Assembly: GCA_903907995.1 (NCBI GenBank)
Contig: CAIVQH010000040.1
Location: 1 to 64,000, forward strand
Direction of reading: 5' to 3'
DNA: 64,000 nt
Source: an uncultured Verrucomicrobiota bacterium
GTDB lineage: Bacteria > Verrucomicrobiota > Verrucomicrobiia > Limisphaerales > UBA9464
Below, piece by piece: positions 1,285 through 9,947 of this stretch (its first letter is position 1; each line of letters opens with the position of its first letter). The position numbers and the translations under genes were made by a program. A model generated the notes under the pieces. That model did not search any database, was not told the DNA's origin, and saw nothing but the letters and a program-made list of their open reading frames with translations.

Positions 1285-2633
1285 TCACGGCGGTGTCACC
1301 ACCCGATAATAGCGCGGCGAAGCCGGGCCGTGGGGTAACGGGTAGGGCAACTGCACGACCAACTCGGCGCCGGCGGTGTAATTGGTGAGGACATGCCAGA
1401 TGCCGGCGCGCAGATCGCTGCTCCATTGCACCTGGTAGATTCCCAGCGGCGCGGTGGCAAAGCCGAGTTCAACCTGATCGGGCCCGGCCTGAATGGTGAT
1501 CGCGCCCGGCGTGGCCAGGGCCTGGCCGACGGCCGCCAGCAAAGGGTCGTCCATTCCGGTCGCCGTGACGCGATGCCCCTGGGACAGCTCCCAGATCATC
1601 ACGCCGCCGAGGTGATAATTGCGGGCATAGCTCACCATCGCGCGGCAGGCCCGCTCGTCGTCATAGGATAGGAAGGCATCCGCCGTATCCGTGGCCCCGG
1701 GAAGGCTCAGGTAGGCCGCCTGCGCGGCGTCATCCCAGTGATAGTTTTGCGGCTGGTAATAATCGGCCGAAATGGTTGACCAGGCCACCGGCGTGACTGT
1801 GGGGGCCATCGTCCAGGATTGACGCGGCAGCAGGGTGCCCCCGGTGGGGGTGCCTCCACCGTGATTCCACAGCTGGCCATAGAAGGCGACCCGATGGCGA
1901 GCTTCTGATTCGACACTCTGTTTCCGAGGAACTCGGTCACCAGGCCATCCGCCGAGGGAATGAGGCTGCCGGTGCTCGGGAAACGATACCCGCCGTCATA
2001 GATCGGCGCGTTGAACCAGACGACCCAGCCCGGCCAGGGACCGGCAAGGTCGTAGGTCATCAGGTTGATCTGGTCGAACTGGCTTTGCAGCGAGGCAAAC
2101 AGCTTCGGTTCGGAAGCCGTGGCGACGGTCAGCAGGGGGCGCGGAGTGTGCAGGTCCAGTGCCGTTCGCAGGGCATTGGCGAGCGCGGCATACCGCCCCG
2201 CGTCGGCGGACGTGAGGGGTTCCCAATCGAGATCCACACCATCATAACCGTTGTCGGTCATGAAACTGACCAGCTGATTCACAAATCCCGGCAGATTGGC
2301 GCTGCTCGTGGCACTCTGGAAACCCGCCTCGCTGTCCGCCCCGCCCACGCAGATGAGCGCCTTGCGATGGGCAGCATGGGCGTGAGCGACGAGGTCCGCG
2401 GAGCGGGCGGCCGTGAGACCGTTCGCGACGGTGTCCAGGGATCCGTCCGCCTTGGGAACAATGGAGAAATGGATGACATGGCTCACGACCGAGAAATCAA
2501 TCTCCTCCGGGGCCATCTGCGCCTGGTGATAGGCCGGATAGTAGGCGGTGGTCCAAAGATCGGCCGCCGCGAGCGCCGTGGAAAAGCAGAACCCAAGGGC
2601 ACAGCTGCGCAGGAGTTTGTGGCCAGACTTCAT
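1285..2633 (-). pseudogene. GH18 chitinase-like secreted glycosidase, frameshifted
   Basis: The start MKSGHKLLRSCALGFCFSTA begins a signal peptide ending LAAA; an in-frame ATG 27 bases upstream is less likely. The mature part shows GH18 features: ALICVGGAD and YDGVDLDWEP, the DxxDxDxE catalytic motif with Glu about residue 138. After KLAIG the frame drifts into non-homologous residues. Reading one frame over restores GVAFYGQLWNHGG and then continues through GGVMIWELSQG to the stop. The break sits at a C run at 1890-1892 (G run on the coding strand) that appears one base short. The last 70 residues are a beta module with YQVQWSSDLRAGIWHVL and RYYRV. The gene is either decaying or affected by a homopolymer error. 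Expected substrate is beta-1,4-linked GlcNAc polymer, exported. Confidence 0.75.
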
Positions 2634-2766
2634 TCGAGGAAAGCGGCTGCCAATTGCCATGGATCATGGCCGGCAACCGGGAAGGCGGCGAGGCTTTTGG
2701 CGCGACGGTCTTGCCGCCACCGAACCGCACGCCGGACGTTGAACCAGCCGGCGAGATGCTGGAAAA

Positions 2767-3741
2767 TCAGGCAACAGCGGGAACGGGTGTGCCGGCCGGC
2801 GGCGGCGCCGCGCGGCGGGGTTTCCAGCGGTTGTGGACCCAGAACCAGTTCGCGGGATCGCGTCGTACGGCAGCCTCCATGGCCCTGTTGATATCCTGCG
2901 TGATGGCCTCGCACGAACGGCGACGCCCGTTCTCCTCCGTGGGGATGGCGTCACCGGTCTCGATCACCCAGCGGCCCAGGCCGGTGCGGTAGCAGATGGG
3001 CACGTACAGCGTGCAGCCATAGCGGGCGGCCAGCAGGGCGGGCGCCCGTGAGGCCATGCAGGTGTGGCCAAGAAAGGAGACCTCCTGGCCGTTCGTGGGC
3101 GCGCTCTGGTCCGCCACGAGCACGAGCAGCAGGCCGCCCTGCTTCAGCAGCTTCTTCAGCTCGTCCGATTCCGTGCGGCGCTCGAACATCTGCATGCCCC
3201 AACGGGTGCGCACGTCATGAAACATCTGGTTCAGGGCGGGCTGGCGGATGCCCCGGTAGGTGCTGGCGAACTGGTACCCGCTGATGTAGGTGCCCAGCCG
3301 CGTGAAGAGCTCGAAATTGCCGAAGTGGCCGGTGGCGAAGAGGCAGTTGCGGGCCACGCCGGCCGCGTCCTTGTTGCCGCCCAGACCCTGGCCCTCCACC
3401 CGCAGGACTTCCTGGATCCTGGCGGGGCTCAGCGCGGCGGCGTGGATGGCACAGCAGGCATTTTCACCGATGCGGCGAAAGTTCTCATGCGCCAGCGCAC
3501 GGATCTGGACGGCCGTCATCTCATGCTGAAAGCAGCGGGTGAGATTCGCGATGGTCATGCGGCGATGGCGCCGGTCCACCCAGAAGACCACCTCGCCCCC
3601 GAAGCGCCCCAGCCGGGCCGCCCAGCTCAGCGGCGCGGCCTGGAGCAGGCCGATGCCACCGCGGGTGAGCAGGCAAAGGGTGTGGTCCACGCACGCCGCC
3701 AGGAGCGCCGTCGGACGAAGGCCTGCCAGCCGCTGCGTCAT
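2767..3741 (-). CDS. Lysophospholipid/lipid A acyltransferase (LpxL/HtrB family)
   Basis: The 324-residue protein belongs to the inner-membrane acyltransferases that transfer a secondary acyl chain to lipid A precursors. It has an N-terminal hydrophobic stretch, the H-x4-E catalytic motif in ATGHFGNFEL, then VLVADQSAP, and the family's typical end NWFWVHNRWK. Length fits the family (about 300). The start MTQRLAG gives a complete N-terminus. It lies downstream of the MbnP-MbnH operon with a 240-base gap in which I see no gene, and upstream of the GH18 gene on the same strand. It implies an outer membrane carrying lipid A-type glycolipid. Acyl-chain specificity cannot be read from the sequence. 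Confidence 0.9.
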   Translation of the reverse strand: MTQRLAGLRPTALLAACVDHTLCLLTRGGIGLLQAAPLSWAARLGRFGGEVVFWVDRRHRRMTIANLTRCFQHEMTAVQIRALAHENFRRIGENACCAIHAAALSPARIQEVLRVEGQGLGGNKDAAGVARNCLFATGHFGNFELFTRLGTYISGYQFASTYRGIRQPALNQMFHDVRTRWGMQMFERRTESDELKKLLKQGGLLLVLVADQSAPTNGQEVSFLGHTCMASRAPALLAARYGCTLYVPICYRTGLGRWVIETGDAIPTEENGRRRSCEAITQDINRAMEAAVRRDPANWFWVHNRWKPRRAAPPPAGTPVPAVA

Positions 3742-3981: not shown

Positions 3982-5754
3982 TCAGGGCGTGGCCGCCGAA
4001 TCCGTGAGCGTCCGGAGAAAGGCGACCAGGGCATGCTGGTCCTCCGCGCTGAGGGGGACCCCACCGTCGGGATGTTTGCCGAGGTTGGGGTCGAGCGTCG
4101 GGCTGCGGCGGACGCCGGAGCAGTAGTGTGCGACGGCCTCCTCCAGCGTGGCCAGGCGGCCGTCATGCATGTACGGCGCGGTCAGCGCCACGTTGCGCAG
4201 CGAAGGGGTCTTGAATTTCGCGAGGTCCGCCCGGTTGGTCGTCACCAGGAAGCGACCGGGGTCCTGGGCGGAGCCGTCGGCATCCAGGCCGTTGTTGTGA
4301 AACGCAAAGTCGCTGAACAGCGGGCCGCCGTGGCAATGGAAGCAGTCCGCCCCATACTGCCCGTGCCGCGGATCATATTCGGTATGGAACAGCTCGTAGC
4401 CGCGCTGCTCCTCCGCCGTGAACGTGGCCCGCACGCCGAGCACCCGGTCGAACTTCGAGTCATAGGCGGTCAGGGTGAGCACGAACTGCTCGAGCGCCCG
4501 CGCCATGCGGTCGGCGGTGATTTCGGCCGTGCCGAAGGCTGCGGCAAAATCCGGCGCATAGCCGGCGCGCTCCAGTTTTCTTACCACGTTCGTGAGCGAC
4601 TCGTGCATCTCGGCCGGATTCGTCACCGGCTGCAGCACCTGTTCACGCAAGGATCCGGCCCGGCCATCCCAGAAGAAGCGGCCGGCCCACGCGAGATTCG
4701 CCAACGGCATCGCGTTGCGGGTGCCAATCGCGCCCTCCGCGCCGGTGCTGAAGCGCTTGCCGGCGTCAGTGAAGGCCGCGTCCGCCTGATGGCATGAGGC
4801 GCAGGACTGCGTGCCGTTCACCGACAGCGCCGGGTCGTGGAACAGCCGGCGGCCGAGCGCCACGCCCTGCTCCGTCAGGGGATTGTCGGCCGGCAGGGAA
4901 GGCTGGGGAAAGAAGCGCGACAGGCGGAACCGGTAGGGTGTGGCGTTCGTGGCCATCTCGACATGACGGGGGGCGGCGGCCAGCACCGGCGCCGGGGCGG
5001 CAGCCGGCACGACCGGACTTTCCGCCCGAAAGGCGCGGATGGCATTGTCCCTCAGTTGCCCGGCCAGCGGGTCGTTGGTGCGGGAATGCGTCGAGGCTGT
5101 GGCGTTGGTGAGCGCGATGGAGTGCACGCCGGAGAAGATTTTCGCGATATCCAGCGTAAGGCGCTGTTCCGTCGGACCATTCGCCGAAGTCACCTGCAAG
5201 GCCAGCGGCAGCTCGACTGGTAGCTCGAGGGCATCGGTGGCCAGATGATAGGAGTAGCCGCCCACCGAGCCCCCGGCCTGGTGCCAGCCGCCTTCGAGCG
5301 CCAGGAACACATAGCCGCCCTGCCAGCTCCAGTGCAGGCCGTTGACGGCGGGATTCAGCGGGTGTCCTGGTGCGATCGTGGCCGGATCGACACGGTTCAC
5401 CGCCGGTGACACGCCGACGCGGAAGCGCAGCCCGGTGAAGCGGCCCGCCGGCACGTCGCGCAGCTCGAACTGCGTCCGCCCGCCGCCGGCGCTGAGATAG
5501 GCAACCTGGTTCGTGAGCGCGACCGTGCCGCCCCCGGCGGTGACCAGGGCGAAGTCGGACAGGAGGTAGTCGAGCCGCGTCACCGACAGGACGTCGCCTG
5601 CCGCGTTCGTGTAGTTCAGTTCGCCGAGATGCAGCGTGCGGTCGCCGAACACGTGCCCGACCTCCACCCGCACCGTGGCCGCCCGCGACGCGACGGCACA
5701 GGCCAGCGCGGCGACGAGCGACCCGAGGGTGCGGAGGAGAGGCCGGGGACTCAT
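3982..5754 (-). CDS. MbnP-MbnH fusion: copper-binding domain joined to di-heme Trp-oxidising enzyme
   Basis: A 590-residue exported protein with signal peptide ending SRAA. Residues about 28-230 match the MbnP family: MbnP core WSWQGGYVFLALEG with Trp142 and Trp144, then GYSYHLATDA. Residues about 265-585 are a di-heme cytochrome c peroxidase/MauG-type enzyme with heme sites CASCH (318-322) and CFHCH (471-475), GTRNAMPLANLAW, and PYMHDGRLATLEEAV. In methanotrophs MbnH is a separate MauG-like enzyme that oxidises a Trp of MbnP to kynurenine so that it binds copper. Here substrate and enzyme are one polypeptide, so the modification could be intramolecular (inference). It follows the YHYH gene by 19 bases, as an operon. 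Periplasmic or surface location is expected. The domain calls are firm; the chemistry in this organism is inferred. Confidence 0.85.
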   Translation of the reverse strand: MSPRPLLRTLGSLVAALACAVASRAATVRVEVGHVFGDRTLHLGELNYTNAAGDVLSVTRLDYLLSDFALVTAGGGTVALTNQVAYLSAGGGRTQFELRDVPAGRFTGLRFRVGVSPAVNRVDPATIAPGHPLNPAVNGLHWSWQGGYVFLALEGGWHQAGGSVGGYSYHLATDALELPVELPLALQVTSANGPTEQRLTLDIAKIFSGVHSIALTNATASTHSRTNDPLAGQLRDNAIRAFRAESPVVPAAAPAPVLAAAPRHVEMATNATPYRFRLSRFFPQPSLPADNPLTEQGVALGRRLFHDPALSVNGTQSCASCHQADAAFTDAGKRFSTGAEGAIGTRNAMPLANLAWAGRFFWDGRAGSLREQVLQPVTNPAEMHESLTNVVRKLERAGYAPDFAAAFGTAEITADRMARALEQFVLTLTAYDSKFDRVLGVRATFTAEEQRGYELFHTEYDPRHGQYGADCFHCHGGPLFSDFAFHNNGLDADGSAQDPGRFLVTTNRADLAKFKTPSLRNVALTAPYMHDGRLATLEEAVAHYCSGVRRSPTLDPNLGKHPDGGVPLSAEDQHALVAFLRTLTDSAATP

Positions 5755-5773
5755 GAGAGCAGGGGCCGACGGT

Positions 5774-7501
5774 TCAGCGGATGGTGAAGCCGTTCGCCAG
5801 CGTGAAGGTCACGTCGCCCTGGCCCGGCGGACCGGGGAAAACGACGCTGACCGTGACCGCGCCGGGAGTGGCGTCCGCCGGGATGGCAAAGGTGGCCGTC
5901 ACGGTGCCGCCACTGCGTTGCACCTGCGTGCCCGCGATGGTTCCCAAGGTGGCCGAGGTCGGGTTGACCGGTCCCGGCGGGGCCATGTCGCCGAGGGTGA
6001 TCGTGAGCGCGACCGTGGTGCCATGCTGACCGCTGGTCGGGGTAATGCCGCCGAGGGTCGGACCGCCACCGCCGCCACCGTTGTTGGTCGTGCCGGTCGC
6101 GGGATCGTATTCGGCCAGGGCCATCTGCGCGACCCGGAAGAAGGCCGGATTCGCCGAGCCGGTGCCGCTGAGGGTGTGGCTGCCCCGGTTGCCGACCGCC
6201 GCCACGCTGGTGGTGTTGGTGCTCCACGCCGTGAGATTCGTCGAGGATTCCACCTGATAGGTACCGCCCTCGACCGCACTCCATACCAGCGTGACCTCAT
6301 TGTCGGCCAGCGTCGGCGTGCCGATCACCACCGGTGAGCTGGCGCCACCCACGAAGTTGGTCGTCACCGTCTCCGCCAGCGCCGTGACCGCCGCGCCGGA
6401 CGGGTTGCCGTAGAAGGCGCGGCCGATGTTGTAGGGGAAGGTCGGAGTGCCGTCGGCGGCGATGCTGACAAAGTAGGCGTACGTGCCATTCGGGAACTCC
6501 GGCGTCACGCAGAAGCGGCCGTTGTATTCGTCCAGGTCAAAGTCCGTGCCCTGGCGGTAGCCGAGATCGCCAAGGTAGGCGTTGTCCTCCATGTAGCGGC
6601 CCAGCGGATAGCTGGTGGAGACCGCCGGGCCGGTCTGCGTGCCGGCGGTGCCATACAGGCGCGTGGCCCAGGTGGGCAGCGTGGCCCGGCCGGCCGTGGT
6701 GAGATTGTCCGTGCCGCGCTGGCCGTTGCGAAGTTGGAAGCCGGTGAGCATCCGGCGCACGCCGCTGCCGGCGTTCGTCGCGTTGGCATAGCCGTAGGGA
6801 CCATAGACCGGATAGCCGTCCCGCACCCAGCCAAGGATTGGCGAATGCTGCGTCACCGGAGCCGAGGATTCGGTGTAGCGTTTGGTCGCCGCCACATAGT
6901 CCACATGGTCGCCGAGCAGGTAGCGCAGGGCGATGGGGTTCGCGTGATAGTGGTAGGTGCCGGTGTTCTCCTGATGCGCGTAGGCGGGATCGAAGGTGGC
7001 CCCCTCGTTCACGTAGGCCTCACGGTTCCAATTGCCACTGCCCTGCGTCTCCGTCGTGCCGTTCCAGGAAAACGCGTCGCGCGAGTCGAACATCGCCACG
7101 CCATCCACGAAGTAGCCGATGGCGCCGAGACCGGTGAGCGTCTTGGTCGCAGGCACGGAGGGCGTGCGCGGGATGCGGTACAGCACCTTCTGATTGGCCG
7201 GCAGATTGGGGAAACCGACGGACCAAGGACCCATCGTGTGGCTGCCTAGGCCGGTGGTGCGCACATAGACCCAGTCGGCGGAGGAATACACCTTCTGCAC
7301 GCCCGCATAGGCGGGCAGCGACTGGGTCTGCGAGCCGTTGCTCCAGGTGGTGACGGCGTTGCCGGCGGCCTGGCTGGCGGCGTTGGTGTAAATGCGGGCG
7401 TAGCGGCCCGAGTAGTCGGTGAGCCATGAGTCGATCCGGGGATCGGCCTGGACGGCGGCGGTCGCGAGCGCGACGCCGATAAGAAGGAGCTGAGGTTTCA
7501 T
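5774..7501 (-). CDS. YHYH-domain exported protein with C-terminal IPT/TIG domain
   Basis: A 575-residue exported protein with signal peptide MKPQLLLIGVALATAAVQA. Its middle carries the YHYH domain: GTYHYHANP with YHYH at 183-186, then SPILGWVRDGYPVYGPYGY, and EYNGRFCVTPEFPNGTYAYF. A beta module follows (GGTYQVESSTNLTAWS ... FFRV), then a glycine run and an IPT/TIG domain (TPTSGQHGTTVALTITLGD) ending NGFTIR. The YHYH domain has no proven activity; its His-rich motif suggests metal binding. It is the first gene of a two-gene operon with the MbnP-MbnH fusion, which points to a shared role in copper handling (inference). It is divergent from the response regulator gene, separated by about 140 bases. 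Confidence 0.8.
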   Translation of the reverse strand: MKPQLLLIGVALATAAVQADPRIDSWLTDYSGRYARIYTNAASQAAGNAVTTWSNGSQTQSLPAYAGVQKVYSSADWVYVRTTGLGSHTMGPWSVGFPNLPANQKVLYRIPRTPSVPATKTLTGLGAIGYFVDGVAMFDSRDAFSWNGTTETQGSGNWNREAYVNEGATFDPAYAHQENTGTYHYHANPIALRYLLGDHVDYVAATKRYTESSAPVTQHSPILGWVRDGYPVYGPYGYANATNAGSGVRRMLTGFQLRNGQRGTDNLTTAGRATLPTWATRLYGTAGTQTGPAVSTSYPLGRYMEDNAYLGDLGYRQGTDFDLDEYNGRFCVTPEFPNGTYAYFVSIAADGTPTFPYNIGRAFYGNPSGAAVTALAETVTTNFVGGASSPVVIGTPTLADNEVTLVWSAVEGGTYQVESSTNLTAWSTNTTSVAAVGNRGSHTLSGTGSANPAFFRVAQMALAEYDPATGTTNNGGGGGGPTLGGITPTSGQHGTTVALTITLGDMAPPGPVNPTSATLGTIAGTQVQRSGGTVTATFAIPADATPGAVTVSVVFPGPPGQGDVTFTLANGFTIR

Positions 7502-7553: not shown

Positions 7554-7598
7554 GTTAAGCCCGTGTGTGGGCAGACCGGAAAATTGTTAAGCCCGTGT
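7554..7598. promoter_or_regulatory. Paired 13-bp direct repeats upstream of a response regulator (candidate operator)
   Basis: GTTAAGCCCGTGT occurs at 7554-7566 and again, identically, at 7586-7598. The start-to-start distance is 32 bases, about three helical turns. OmpR-family regulators bind tandem direct repeats on one face of DNA, so these may be an autoregulatory site for the regulator that starts at 7645, or for the divergent YHYH operon. The repeat identity is seen directly; the role is inferred. Confidence 0.55.
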
Positions 7599-7644
7599 AA
7601 AGATGGCGGATTTTCCCCGCCGAACCCTTACGGTGCGCCCCAGC

Positions 7645-8388
7645 ATGACGGCTCCACCGACCGCCAACGCCGCCCGGATCCTGGTCATCGATGACGACCG
7701 CAAGCTCTGCCGGCTCATCCGCGACTACCTGGAGCCCATGGGCTACGCGGTCGAGGCCGCCCACACCGGCCAGGAGGGCGTCGAGCGGGCCACCGCCGCA
7801 CCCTGGCAGGCCGTGATCCTCGACCTGATGCTGCCGGGCATGGACGGCTTCGAGGTGCTGAAGCAGATCCGGCGCACCAGCAGCGTGCCCGTGCTGATGC
7901 TGACGGCACGGGGTGACGAGGCCGACCGCATCGTGGGCCTGGAGATTGGCGCCGACGACTACCTGCCCAAAACGTTTTCCACACGCGAACTGCTCGCCCG
8001 CCTGCGCGCCGTGATCCGCCGCTCGGCGCTCACGAAGGCCGAGGCCGAAGACGACGCGGAGTACGTTGTGGGCGAGCTGCGCGTCCGACCGGCCTCGCGC
8101 ACCGCCACGCTCGGCGAACAGGCGCTGGCGCTCACCCCCGTGGAGTTTGACCTGCTGGCCTCGCTCGCGAAGGCCAGAGGCCGGGTGAAGTCGCGCGAGC
8201 AGTTGCTCGACGAGTGCCGCGACCGGAATTACGACGTGTTCGACCGCTCGATTGACGTCCACATCTCCGCGCTCCGGAAAAAACTGGGCGATGATTCCAA
8301 GTCCCCACGCTACATCCGCACCCTGCGCGCGGCGGGCTATATGATGGCCGATCCCGAGGTGGAGAAAGGGGAGGGCAACAAGCCATGA
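7645..8388 (+). CDS. OmpR-family response regulator (CpxR-like)
   Basis: A 247-residue two-domain regulator. The receiver has ILVIDDDRK (acidic pocket), AVILDLMLPGMDG (phospho-acceptor Asp), LMLTARGDE (switch Thr) and YLPKTFSTRELLARL (conserved Lys). The C-terminal winged helix shows LALTPVEFDLLASLAKARGR and DRSIDVHISALRKKLGD, with IRTLRAAGYM. I chose ATG 7645 because the receiver begins soon after; an in-frame ATG at 7603 would add 14 residues overlapping the repeat region. Its stop overlaps the kinase start (ATGA, 4 bases), so the two are translationally coupled. The output helix and partner resemble CpxR/CpxA, so an envelope-stress role is plausible but not shown. Confidence 0.95.
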   Translation: MTAPPTANAARILVIDDDRKLCRLIRDYLEPMGYAVEAAHTGQEGVERATAAPWQAVILDLMLPGMDGFEVLKQIRRTSSVPVLMLTARGDEADRIVGLEIGADDYLPKTFSTRELLARLRAVIRRSALTKAEAEDDAEYVVGELRVRPASRTATLGEQALALTPVEFDLLASLAKARGRVKSREQLLDECRDRNYDVFDRSIDVHISALRKKLGDDSKSPRYIRTLRAAGYMMADPEVEKGEGNKP

Positions 8389-9947
8389 GCGACGACGCCC
8401 CTCCGCCGGGCGGCGCGCCTGGTCCGGTTGTCTCCCCGCCGGTCCCGACCAGCCCAGCCGGGGCACGCCCGGGCCGTTCCGCGTTCCTCTGGCGGCTGCC
8501 GTGGAAACTGCCGCTGCTGGCACAAATCATCGGCTGGTTTTTCCTGAACCTGGTGCTACTCGCTGCCGGAGCCTGGCTGTTCGTGCGCTCAGAGCTGCGC
8601 CTGGGACCCCTGCTGGCCGGCCTCGCGACCCAGCGCGCCCTGCCCGCGGTCGAGACCATGGTCATCGAGCTGCGCGACCGCCCCCGGGCCGACTGGGACG
8701 CGATGCTGGAGCGCTTTGGCCGCGTCTATGGCGTCCAATTGCTGCTCCTGCACGGCAACGGCAGCCGCGTGGCCGGCCCGGAGATCACGCTGCCCGAGCC
8801 GGTGCGCGCCTGGATGCAGGCACGGGAAGGCCTGCGCGGCGAGCCGCCCCCCTCCGAAAACCGCCCGCCTCCCCCGGAGGAGTTGCGCCGGCGTCCGCTG
8901 ACCCCTGTGTTCCTGCACACCTCGGCCCCCTCCTGCTACTGGCTGCTGCTCGAAGCGCCGCTGCCCGATCCCGACGAACACCGGCCGCTGCGGCTGGCCA
9001 TCCGCTCGGAATCGCTCGGTGCCGGCGGGCTGTTCTTCGACTTCCGGCCGTGGCTCTGGGCGGGTTCGTCCGTGATGGTGCTGTCGGTGCTGTGGTGGAT
9101 TCCCTTCGTGCGGAGCATCACCCGCGCCCTCTCCCGGGTCACGGCGGCCACCGAGCAGATCGCCGGCGGCCGGTTCGAGGTCGCGCTGGACGAGGGGCGC
9201 GGGGACGAGCTGGGCCGGCTGGCCGGCGCGATCAACCGCATGTCGGCGCGCCTCGTCCACTTCGTCACCGGGCAGAAGCGCTTCCTCGGCGACATCGCGC
9301 ACGAGCTGTGCGCCCCGCTGTCGCGGATGCAGCTGGCCATCGGCGTGCTCGAGCAGCGCGCCGACGAGCGCCAGCGCGAATACGTGGAGGATGTGCGCGA
9401 GGAGCTGCAGCACATGTCCGCCCTGGTGAACGAGCTGCTGTCCTTCTCCCGGGCCGGCATCACCGGCCGCGAGGTGCCGCTTTCCTCCGTGCCGCTGCAC
9501 CCGCTGGTGGACCGGGTGCTCGCCCGCGAATCCCTGCCCGCCGACCGCGCGCGGATCACGGTGCCGCCGGGACTCGCCGTGCTGGCCGAGCCGGAACTGC
9601 TCGCCCGCTGCCTCGGCAACCTGGTGCGCAACGCCCTCCGCCACGCCGGCACCGCGGAGGGTCCGGTCGAGATTTCCGCGCGGCCCCACGAAGGCTGGGT
9701 GGAAATCTCGGTCGCCGACCACGGCCCCGGCGTGCCGACGGAGTCGCTGGACCGCATCTTCGAGCCGTTCTACCGCGTGGACGTCTCGCGCCAGCGCGAG
9801 ACCGGCGGCGTCGGCCTCGGCCTGGCCATCGTGAAGACCTGCCTCCAGGCCTGCGGCGGCCGGGTTTCCGCCCGCAACCGCGAACCGCACGGGCTGGAGG
9901 TGGTGCTCGTGCTGGCCCGGGCCCGCGATTCCGTCCCGCCGGAGTGA
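8385..9947 (+). CDS. Sensor histidine kinase (CpxA-like)
   Basis: A 520-residue membrane kinase. A proline-rich N-terminal tail precedes TM1 (about 45-70, IIGWFFLNLVLLAAGAWLF), a periplasmic segment of about 150 residues with proline-rich PPSENRPPPPEELRRRP, TM2 (WAGSSVMVLSVLWWIPFV), and a HAMP linker. The H-box is GDIAHELCAPLSRMQLAIG; E-L-C-x-P-L is the CpxA-type variant of the usual E-L-R-T-P-L. The ATPase domain has N box LVRNALRHA, G1 VADHGPGVP and G2 TGGVGLGLAIVK. It overlaps the response regulator by 4 bases and is its evident partner. The small sensor region has no recognised ligand domain. Confidence 0.93.
   Translation: MSDDAPPPGGAPGPVVSPPVPTSPAGARPGRSAFLWRLPWKLPLLAQIIGWFFLNLVLLAAGAWLFVRSELRLGPLLAGLATQRALPAVETMVIELRDRPRADWDAMLERFGRVYGVQLLLLHGNGSRVAGPEITLPEPVRAWMQAREGLRGEPPPSENRPPPPEELRRRPLTPVFLHTSAPSCYWLLLEAPLPDPDEHRPLRLAIRSESLGAGGLFFDFRPWLWAGSSVMVLSVLWWIPFVRSITRALSRVTAATEQIAGGRFEVALDEGRGDELGRLAGAINRMSARLVHFVTGQKRFLGDIAHELCAPLSRMQLAIGVLEQRADERQREYVEDVREELQHMSALVNELLSFSRAGITGREVPLSSVPLHPLVDRVLARESLPADRARITVPPGLAVLAEPELLARCLGNLVRNALRHAGTAEGPVEISARPHEGWVEISVADHGPGVPTESLDRIFEPFYRVDVSRQRETGGVGLGLAIVKTCLQACGGRVSARNREPHGLEVVLVLARARDSVPPE

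Follow-up and report, generated by a model that had tools for sequence, protein, structure and literature searches.

In the methanotroph protein MbnP, the first Trp of a WxW motif is reportedly converted to kynurenine, and the copper site is said to consist of a His, a Met, solvent and this kynurenine. In MopE/CorA, Cu(I) is surrounded by two His residues, water and kynurenine, without Met (PMC3912023). Gene pairs of the MbnP/MbnH type are known and widespread, and the paper describing them speaks of a pair and never of "fused" or "fusion" (PMC3621798). Here we describe a locus of an uncultured Verrucomicrobiota bacterium in which MbnP-like and MbnH-like domains are encoded by a single gene. 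It lies in a stretch of 64,000 nucleotides (contig CAIVQH010000040.1, positions 1 to 64,000; the window in the following), where two open reading frames (ORFs), one of 590 amino acids at 3982-5754 and one of 575 amino acids at 5774-7501, are located on the same (minus) strand and separated by 19 bp. The former encodes the fusion, the latter its upstream partner, a YHYH protein. The fusion probably handles copper for its host genomes, because the fused form recurs across Verrucomicrobiota together with YHYH and, in some of them, directly before a copper enzyme. We found no MbnP-MbnH fusion, no link of YHYH to copper and no link of such a fusion to copper radical oxidases in the open literature, where a passing mention in PNAS 2021 or JBC 2019 papers is possible. 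The fusion gene and its parts are as follows.

3982 to 5754, minus strand: MbnP-like/MbnH-like fusion gene, 590 amino acids, with an N-terminal Sec-type signal judged by eye
5104 to 5676, minus strand: MbnP domain, residues 27-217 (PF20243, E 3.7e-30; 7l6g_D, Z 18.4, 206 residues aligned over 24-247)
5329 to 5331, minus strand: codon of Trp142, first Trp of WxW and predicted kynurenine site (aligned with WNW of 7l6g; 38/38 fused)
5323 to 5325, minus strand: codon of Trp144, second Trp of WxW (37/38 fused; Pro in L015)
5245 to 5247, minus strand: codon of His170, candidate copper ligand (38/38 fused, 57/60 unfused; His of MVHVG in 7l6g)
4939 to 5013, minus strand: linker, about residues 248-272 (pLDDT, the predicted local distance difference test, below 50 at 250-261)
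3985 to 4938, minus strand: MbnH/MauG-like di-heme domain, residues 273-590 (6e1c_A, Z 31.4, 303 residues aligned; PF03150)
4789 to 4803, minus strand: heme motif CASCH, residues 318-322 (Cys/His invariant, 38/38)
4330 to 4344, minus strand: heme motif CFHCH, residues 471-475 (Cys/His invariant, 38/38)
4123 to 4125, minus strand: codon of Tyr544 (aligned with the axial Tyr294 of MauG)

The original prediction, made from the letters alone, had read this ORF as MbnP and MbnH in one polypeptide, with MbnP in its first 240 residues, and profile searches bear this out. PF20243 (MbnP) matches there with 105.7 bits against a Pfam gathering cut-off of 27, and PF03150 (CCP_MauG) matches residues 296-439 above its cut-off (E 6.9e-53). 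An AlphaFold2 model of the fusion, built from 22 fused homologues, reached a mean pLDDT of 82.6 and a predicted template modelling score of 0.82. Its residues 24-247 fit the fold of Methylosinus trichosporium MbnP (7l6g_D) with a root-mean-square deviation of 3.0. For the di-heme part the best structural match is MbnH (6e1c_A), with MauG next (Z 28.3), and phmmer aligned this domain to the sequence of the MbnH structure with E 1.3e-54. The NCBIfam models rank the enzyme half in the same order, TIGR04039 (MbnH) first at 221.5 bits and TIGR03791 (MauG), whose cut-off is missed, second at 185.1. Since the interdomain stretch 250-261 falls below a pLDDT of 50, a loose linker of some 25 residues probably connects the domains.

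Both heme motifs named in the original prediction are present, and their ligands (C318/C321/H322 and C471/C474/H475) do not vary among fused relatives. Classical bacterial cytochrome c peroxidases (CCPs) have Met at the axial position held by Tyr in MauG. The fusion has Tyr544 there, aligned with position 294 of the MauG chains (PDB entry 3orv is titled Y294H-MauG), and the residue is Tyr in all 38 fused sequences. The enzyme half therefore departs from the classical CCP, defined by a Met axial ligand on the high-potential heme, and shows instead the traits of the MbnH/MauG group, two CxxCH motifs and an axial Tyr replacing the CCP Met, without exception in the 38. Position 469, two residues before the second-heme Cys, is Ala in 37 of the 38, as it is in MbnH. 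Because Ala469 replaces Trp199 of MauG, electrons reach the substrate by a route other than that of MauG.

Next, we examined the residue expected to be modified. A profile of the MbnP domain found a single sequence in the PDB, 7l6g, with the family motif GLHWSWQGG aligned to GMAWNWQAG. The WSW at 142-144 thus coincides with the WNW of M. trichosporium MbnP. The earlier proposal had left the choice between Trp142 and Trp144, and the alignment settles on Trp142, the first Trp of WxW. Trp144 was rejected as the modified residue, being second in WxW and Pro in L015. Three His residues are near-invariant in the fused family: His170 (38/38), His141 (37/38) and His131 (36/38). The first of them also occurs in 57 of the 60 unfused relatives and corresponds to the His of MVHVG in 7l6g.

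To compare the locus with other bacteria, we used the best 80 loci of a contig profile search, the source of all comparison outside Verrucomicrobiota. Twenty-one of these loci, all from Verrucomicrobiota, carry the fused form, and the remaining ones, mostly from Bacteroidota, have separate adjacent genes; among the 80, every pair of PF20243 gene and enzyme gene outside Verrucomicrobiota is separate. In many Bacteroidota loci (L033, L034, L036, L038, L040 and others among L033-L080), not one but two MauG-like genes in succession follow MbnP. In a sample of 289 Verrucomicrobiota genomes, PF20243 was present in 16, and every copy was fused with the enzyme, bar a frameshifted one in G108 and a fragmented one in G121. 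The fused form is the sole MbnP form in this sample.

In a tree of the concatenated domains (98 rows, 38 of them fused), all fused rows fall on one side of a single branch, whose support is only 68. This fits a single fusion event. The nearest unfused row, grouped with the fused ones at 94, is the Sumerlaeota pair L039, in which YHYH, MbnP and MauG are consecutive separate genes beside a two-component system; this gene order looks like the state before the fusion. We rejected the notion that the fusion is an artefact or a chance read-through, as it is stop-free in dozens of other genomes and its 38 sequences share one side of a branch.

The upstream gene was proposed to be an operon partner, and this part of the original prediction is strengthened by the following features and their distribution.

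5774 to 7501, minus strand: gene of the YHYH protein, the upstream partner, 575 amino acids (PF14240; co-occurrence with MbnP)
6458 to 7180, minus strand: YHYH domain, long form, residues 108-348 (span of the PF14240 match)

The match to PF14240 (YHYH) is unambiguous (E 6.8e-42, 144 bits against a gathering cut-off of 25). YHYH was found in 30 of the 289 genomes, including all 16 with MbnP, and lies within 6 kb of the fusion in 12 of the 16. The co-occurrence gives a Fisher probability of 2e-18 when counted by genome and 1e-11 by genus, both values ignoring phylogeny. The long form of YHYH, recognised by the span of the Pfam match, occurs in 14 genomes, namely 13 MbnP genomes and G238, whose fusion seems to be truncated, to judge from fragments at contig ends. 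Three MbnP genomes (G188, G191 and G200) have no long-form YHYH, and all of them belong to the second operon type described below. Within the YHYH domain, His176, His184, His186, His219 and Asp228 are among the conserved residues and could bind metal.

The YHYH protein itself resists classification by structure. Its AlphaFold2 model (pLDDT 76.9) gave no Foldseek match in the PDB below E 0.9 and no VIA Z above 3, and a sequence profile gave no PDB match either. Assignment of a function from the fold was therefore abandoned, the lack of a PDB match being no proof of a new fold. A TIG domain, which had been proposed for this protein, was discarded because Pfam offers no support for it up to E 10. 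In a separate case, L132:10163-13204 (genome G235), the same gene as L016:519-3560, YHYH is placed behind a sulfatase domain in one protein of 1013 amino acids, and in L132 this gene is divergent from the regulator, the kinase and the fusion.

Upstream of YHYH in the window, genes of an OmpR-family regulator and a histidine kinase are oriented divergently, and a direct repeat lies in between.

7554 to 7566, plus strand: upstream half of the direct repeat, GTTAAGCCCGTGT
7584 to 7601, plus strand: conserved element TTGTTAAGCCCGTGTAAA, containing the second repeat at 7586-7598
7603 to 8388, plus strand: OmpR-family response regulator (the start may be 7645)
8385 to 9947, plus strand: sensor histidine kinase with HAMP, HisKA and HATPase_c

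The 13-bp repeat GTTAAGCCCGTGT occurs twice as an exact copy, with starts at 7554 and 7586, 32 bp apart, and this is the sole such pair in the genome of the window. Its second half is part of a longer element, TTGTTAAGNNNNNGTNAA, which recurs in eight intergenic regions of loci of this type. The element precedes YHYH and, where both genes lie apart, it also precedes the fusion. The repeat is conserved in G018, G170 and G182, and its second half in L004. A search of 13 whole genomes with the bipartite pattern returned six matches in four genomes, all at this locus, and none with the reversed control; the nine other genomes gave no match, and several of them have other regulators nearby or none. 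The natural reading is that the repeat is a candidate private box of the regulator, which would co-express the regulator, YHYH and the fusion. The nearest NCBIfam models of the kinase are CpxA and then the heavy-metal sensor group, all below cut-offs.

In ten fused loci, a different gene overlaps the fusion (stop/start) or directly follows it. Its product reaches about 2000 residues or more, most of these genes running past the end of the examined stretch, and is assembled from a galactose-oxidase module, legume-type lectin, Ig-like and beta-propeller parts and a MauG-like cytochrome. The loci concerned are L128 (7611-13563), L126, L127, L130, L134, L136, L010, L017, L018 and L009. In a PDB search, the N-terminal module hit galactose oxidase with E 2.7e-96 (alignment with 9g8h), and all ten sequences have the residues of the copper-radical site that mark the galactose oxidase/GlxA family (Cys, Tyr, Tyr-His and His). 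At fused loci of these other lineages, the copper radical oxidase takes the partner position of YHYH. In the 289 genomes, the galactose-oxidase domain PF09118 is confined to this position (six genomes), and this operon type ties the fusion to a copper enzyme independently of MbnP itself. Together with the element shared with the two-component system, it speaks more strongly for a role in copper than any other independent evidence. Other downstream neighbours of the fusion vary by locus (LVIVD, DUF7133, intradiol dioxygenase, symporter); in L005, the gene overlapping the fusion stop (2720-3379) encodes an intradiol dioxygenase-like protein (PF00775).

The explanation we consider best, and on balance probable, is that the fusion is an exported, self-contained MbnP/MbnH pair which makes its own kynurenine Cu(I) site and delivers copper to clients. 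Peroxide would oxidise the C-terminal di-heme domain, in which the second heme is predicted to be ligated by His and Tyr as in MauG and MbnH. The oxidising equivalents would then turn Trp142 of the MbnP domain, whether of that chain or of a copy next to it, into kynurenine. Modification in cis is plausible because of the linker, and modification in trans between two copies is possible. A Cu(I) site would form, probably from Kyn142 and His170 together with either His141 or His131 in place of the Met found in classical MbnP. Once loaded, the protein would pass copper to a co-expressed exported client or shield copper for it. This client would be the YHYH protein in the operon type of the window and the galactose-oxidase-like copper radical oxidase in the other type. 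On sensing its signal, the dedicated two-component system would turn on the YHYH and fusion genes together.

Several observations weigh against this explanation. Both NCBIfam equivalog cut-offs are missed, that of TIGR04052 (MbnP_like_WxW) at 37.2 bits where 140 is demanded and that of TIGR04039 at 221.5 bits where the curated value is 362.85. The identity originally proposed therefore stands at the level of the superfamilies, to which the respective halves belong, and falls at the level of the equivalogs; the domains can be called MbnP-like and MbnH-like, but the curated definitions of MbnP and MbnH are too narrow for them. The published His/Met/kynurenine site is not copied in the fusion, because its MbnP domain has no Met: there is none at residues 2-266 of the window protein, and across the fused family Met is conserved at no position (10/38 in the Met-richest column). 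The fusion has Leu140 where MbnP has Met, and His141 where MbnP has Ala. By analogy, we infer a Met-free copper site of the MopE/CorA kind. Kynurenine formation at Trp142 and copper binding by the fusion are themselves predicted from sequence, fold and conservation. The AlphaFold2 model contains no hemes. Finally, the genome of the window contains no galactose-oxidase homologue, and the link to a copper enzyme comes from other branches.

A bolder version of the favoured explanation can be put forward tentatively, and we regard it as rather doubtful. It holds that the fusion is a single-chain, self-activating copper maturation factor, which would oxidise its own Trp142 in cis, build a Met-free kynurenine site and load exported clients. 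In this version, YHYH would be a copper protein that has escaped recognition, its fold having no match in the PDB.

The chief competing explanation assigns maturation of the client to the heme domain. The di-heme domain would mainly oxidise the operon partner, creating the Cys-Tyr cross-link of the oxidase or altering a YHYH residue, the MbnP domain would be the copper donor, and modification of Trp142 would be secondary or absent. We consider this unlikely, even though the gene arrangement speaks for it. Among the 289 genomes, PF09118 occurs in six, as one copy each, and in all six directly downstream of the fusion, with stop/start overlap. No fused locus has both YHYH and the oxidase as neighbours, an exclusion whose statistical test overstates the evidence since the types are clustered in the tree. 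A comparable case exists in Streptomyces, where GlxA matures under copper scarcity only with the help of Sco, a chaperone, and DtpA, a heme peroxidase (PMC4736821). On the other hand, the WxW Trp and His170 are conserved no less strictly than the heme ligands, which a docking domain would not need. Moreover, the Cys-Tyr link of known copper radical oxidases is generally understood to form with copper and O2.

Another alternative, in our opinion quite improbable, is a periplasmic di-heme peroxidase for peroxide defence, with an MbnP-derived docking or copper-storage domain and an unmodified Trp142. The enzyme does belong to the bCCP/MauG superfamily, and unfused PF20243 relatives have lost the first Trp in 6/60 cases (to Phe or Met) and the second in 13/60 (to Val). 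However, Trp142 is lost in no fused protein, and the axial residue in all 38 is Tyr544, not the CCP Met; the axial Tyr of MauG is generally associated with substrate oxidation, not with peroxidase turnover. A further possibility, that the MbnP domain carries no metal or one different from copper, is very improbable: loss of the Met ligand, the unassigned chemistry of YHYH and the YHYH model without a PDB fold match would agree with it, but it is opposed by the dedicated copper radical oxidase partner and by CorA/MopE, which bind Cu(I) with two His and kynurenine and no Met (PMC3912023), the fused family having three near-invariant His.

Apart from this, the flavobacterial PF20243 proteins deficient in WxW (within L024-L081) mostly retain His170 and a MauG neighbour. 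Those lacking one Trp of WxW may act without kynurenine. Elsewhere in the window, a GH18 chitinase-like gene (1285-2660, minus strand) is split over two overlapping frames, the profile being matched over 4-229 in one and 264-316 in the other. This represents a frameshift, a pseudogene or a sequencing error.

Pairs resembling MbnP/MbnH are common far outside methanobactin producers. A fusion in a single gene makes the reaction from Trp to kynurenine addressable in one protein, including the choice between cis and trans, the stoichiometry and the Met-free site. Concrete candidates for clients come from the strict ties of the fusion, in one branch with a copper radical oxidase and in another with YHYH plus a private two-component system. 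The association with YHYH also suggests a role for this uncharacterised family.

Of the systems compared, the Bacteroidota pairs of PF20243 and CCP proteins have the same two domains encoded by adjacent genes, but they are unfused, have no YHYH at the examined loci, and some lack one Trp of WxW. MauG shares the di-heme fold (Z 28) and the equivalent of its Tyr294 with the fusion; it differs in having Trp199 at the position of Ala469 and methylamine dehydrogenase as substrate, whereas the candidate substrate here is fused to the enzyme, and the TIGR03791 cut-off is missed. The Streptomyces GlxA-Sco-DtpA system likewise comprises a copper radical oxidase needing a copper chaperone and a heme peroxidase, but the families are unrelated, and in our case a single chain comprises both the putative donor and the heme enzyme.

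MopE/CorA with SACCP/CorB also combine a kynurenine Cu(I) protein with a di-heme CCP/MauG-like protein encoded beside it, and their two-His site resembles the possible site of the fused family. Their genes are separate, however, and the MbnP-domain profile, searched against the PDB up to E 10, retrieves 7l6g alone. The greatest likeness is to MbnP and MbnH of methanotrophs (7l6g, 6e1c), with which the fusion shares both folds, WxW with an invariant first Trp, the aligned His170, two c-heme motifs, the axial Tyr and an extra His in the second heme motif. In contrast to them, it is one polypeptide, has no Met in the copper domain and scores below both equivalog cut-offs. The genome of the window has no match to the methanobactin-type MbnB (PF05114), a model that does match in control genomes, and the partners of the fusion are instead YHYH or a copper radical oxidase, along with a two-component system.

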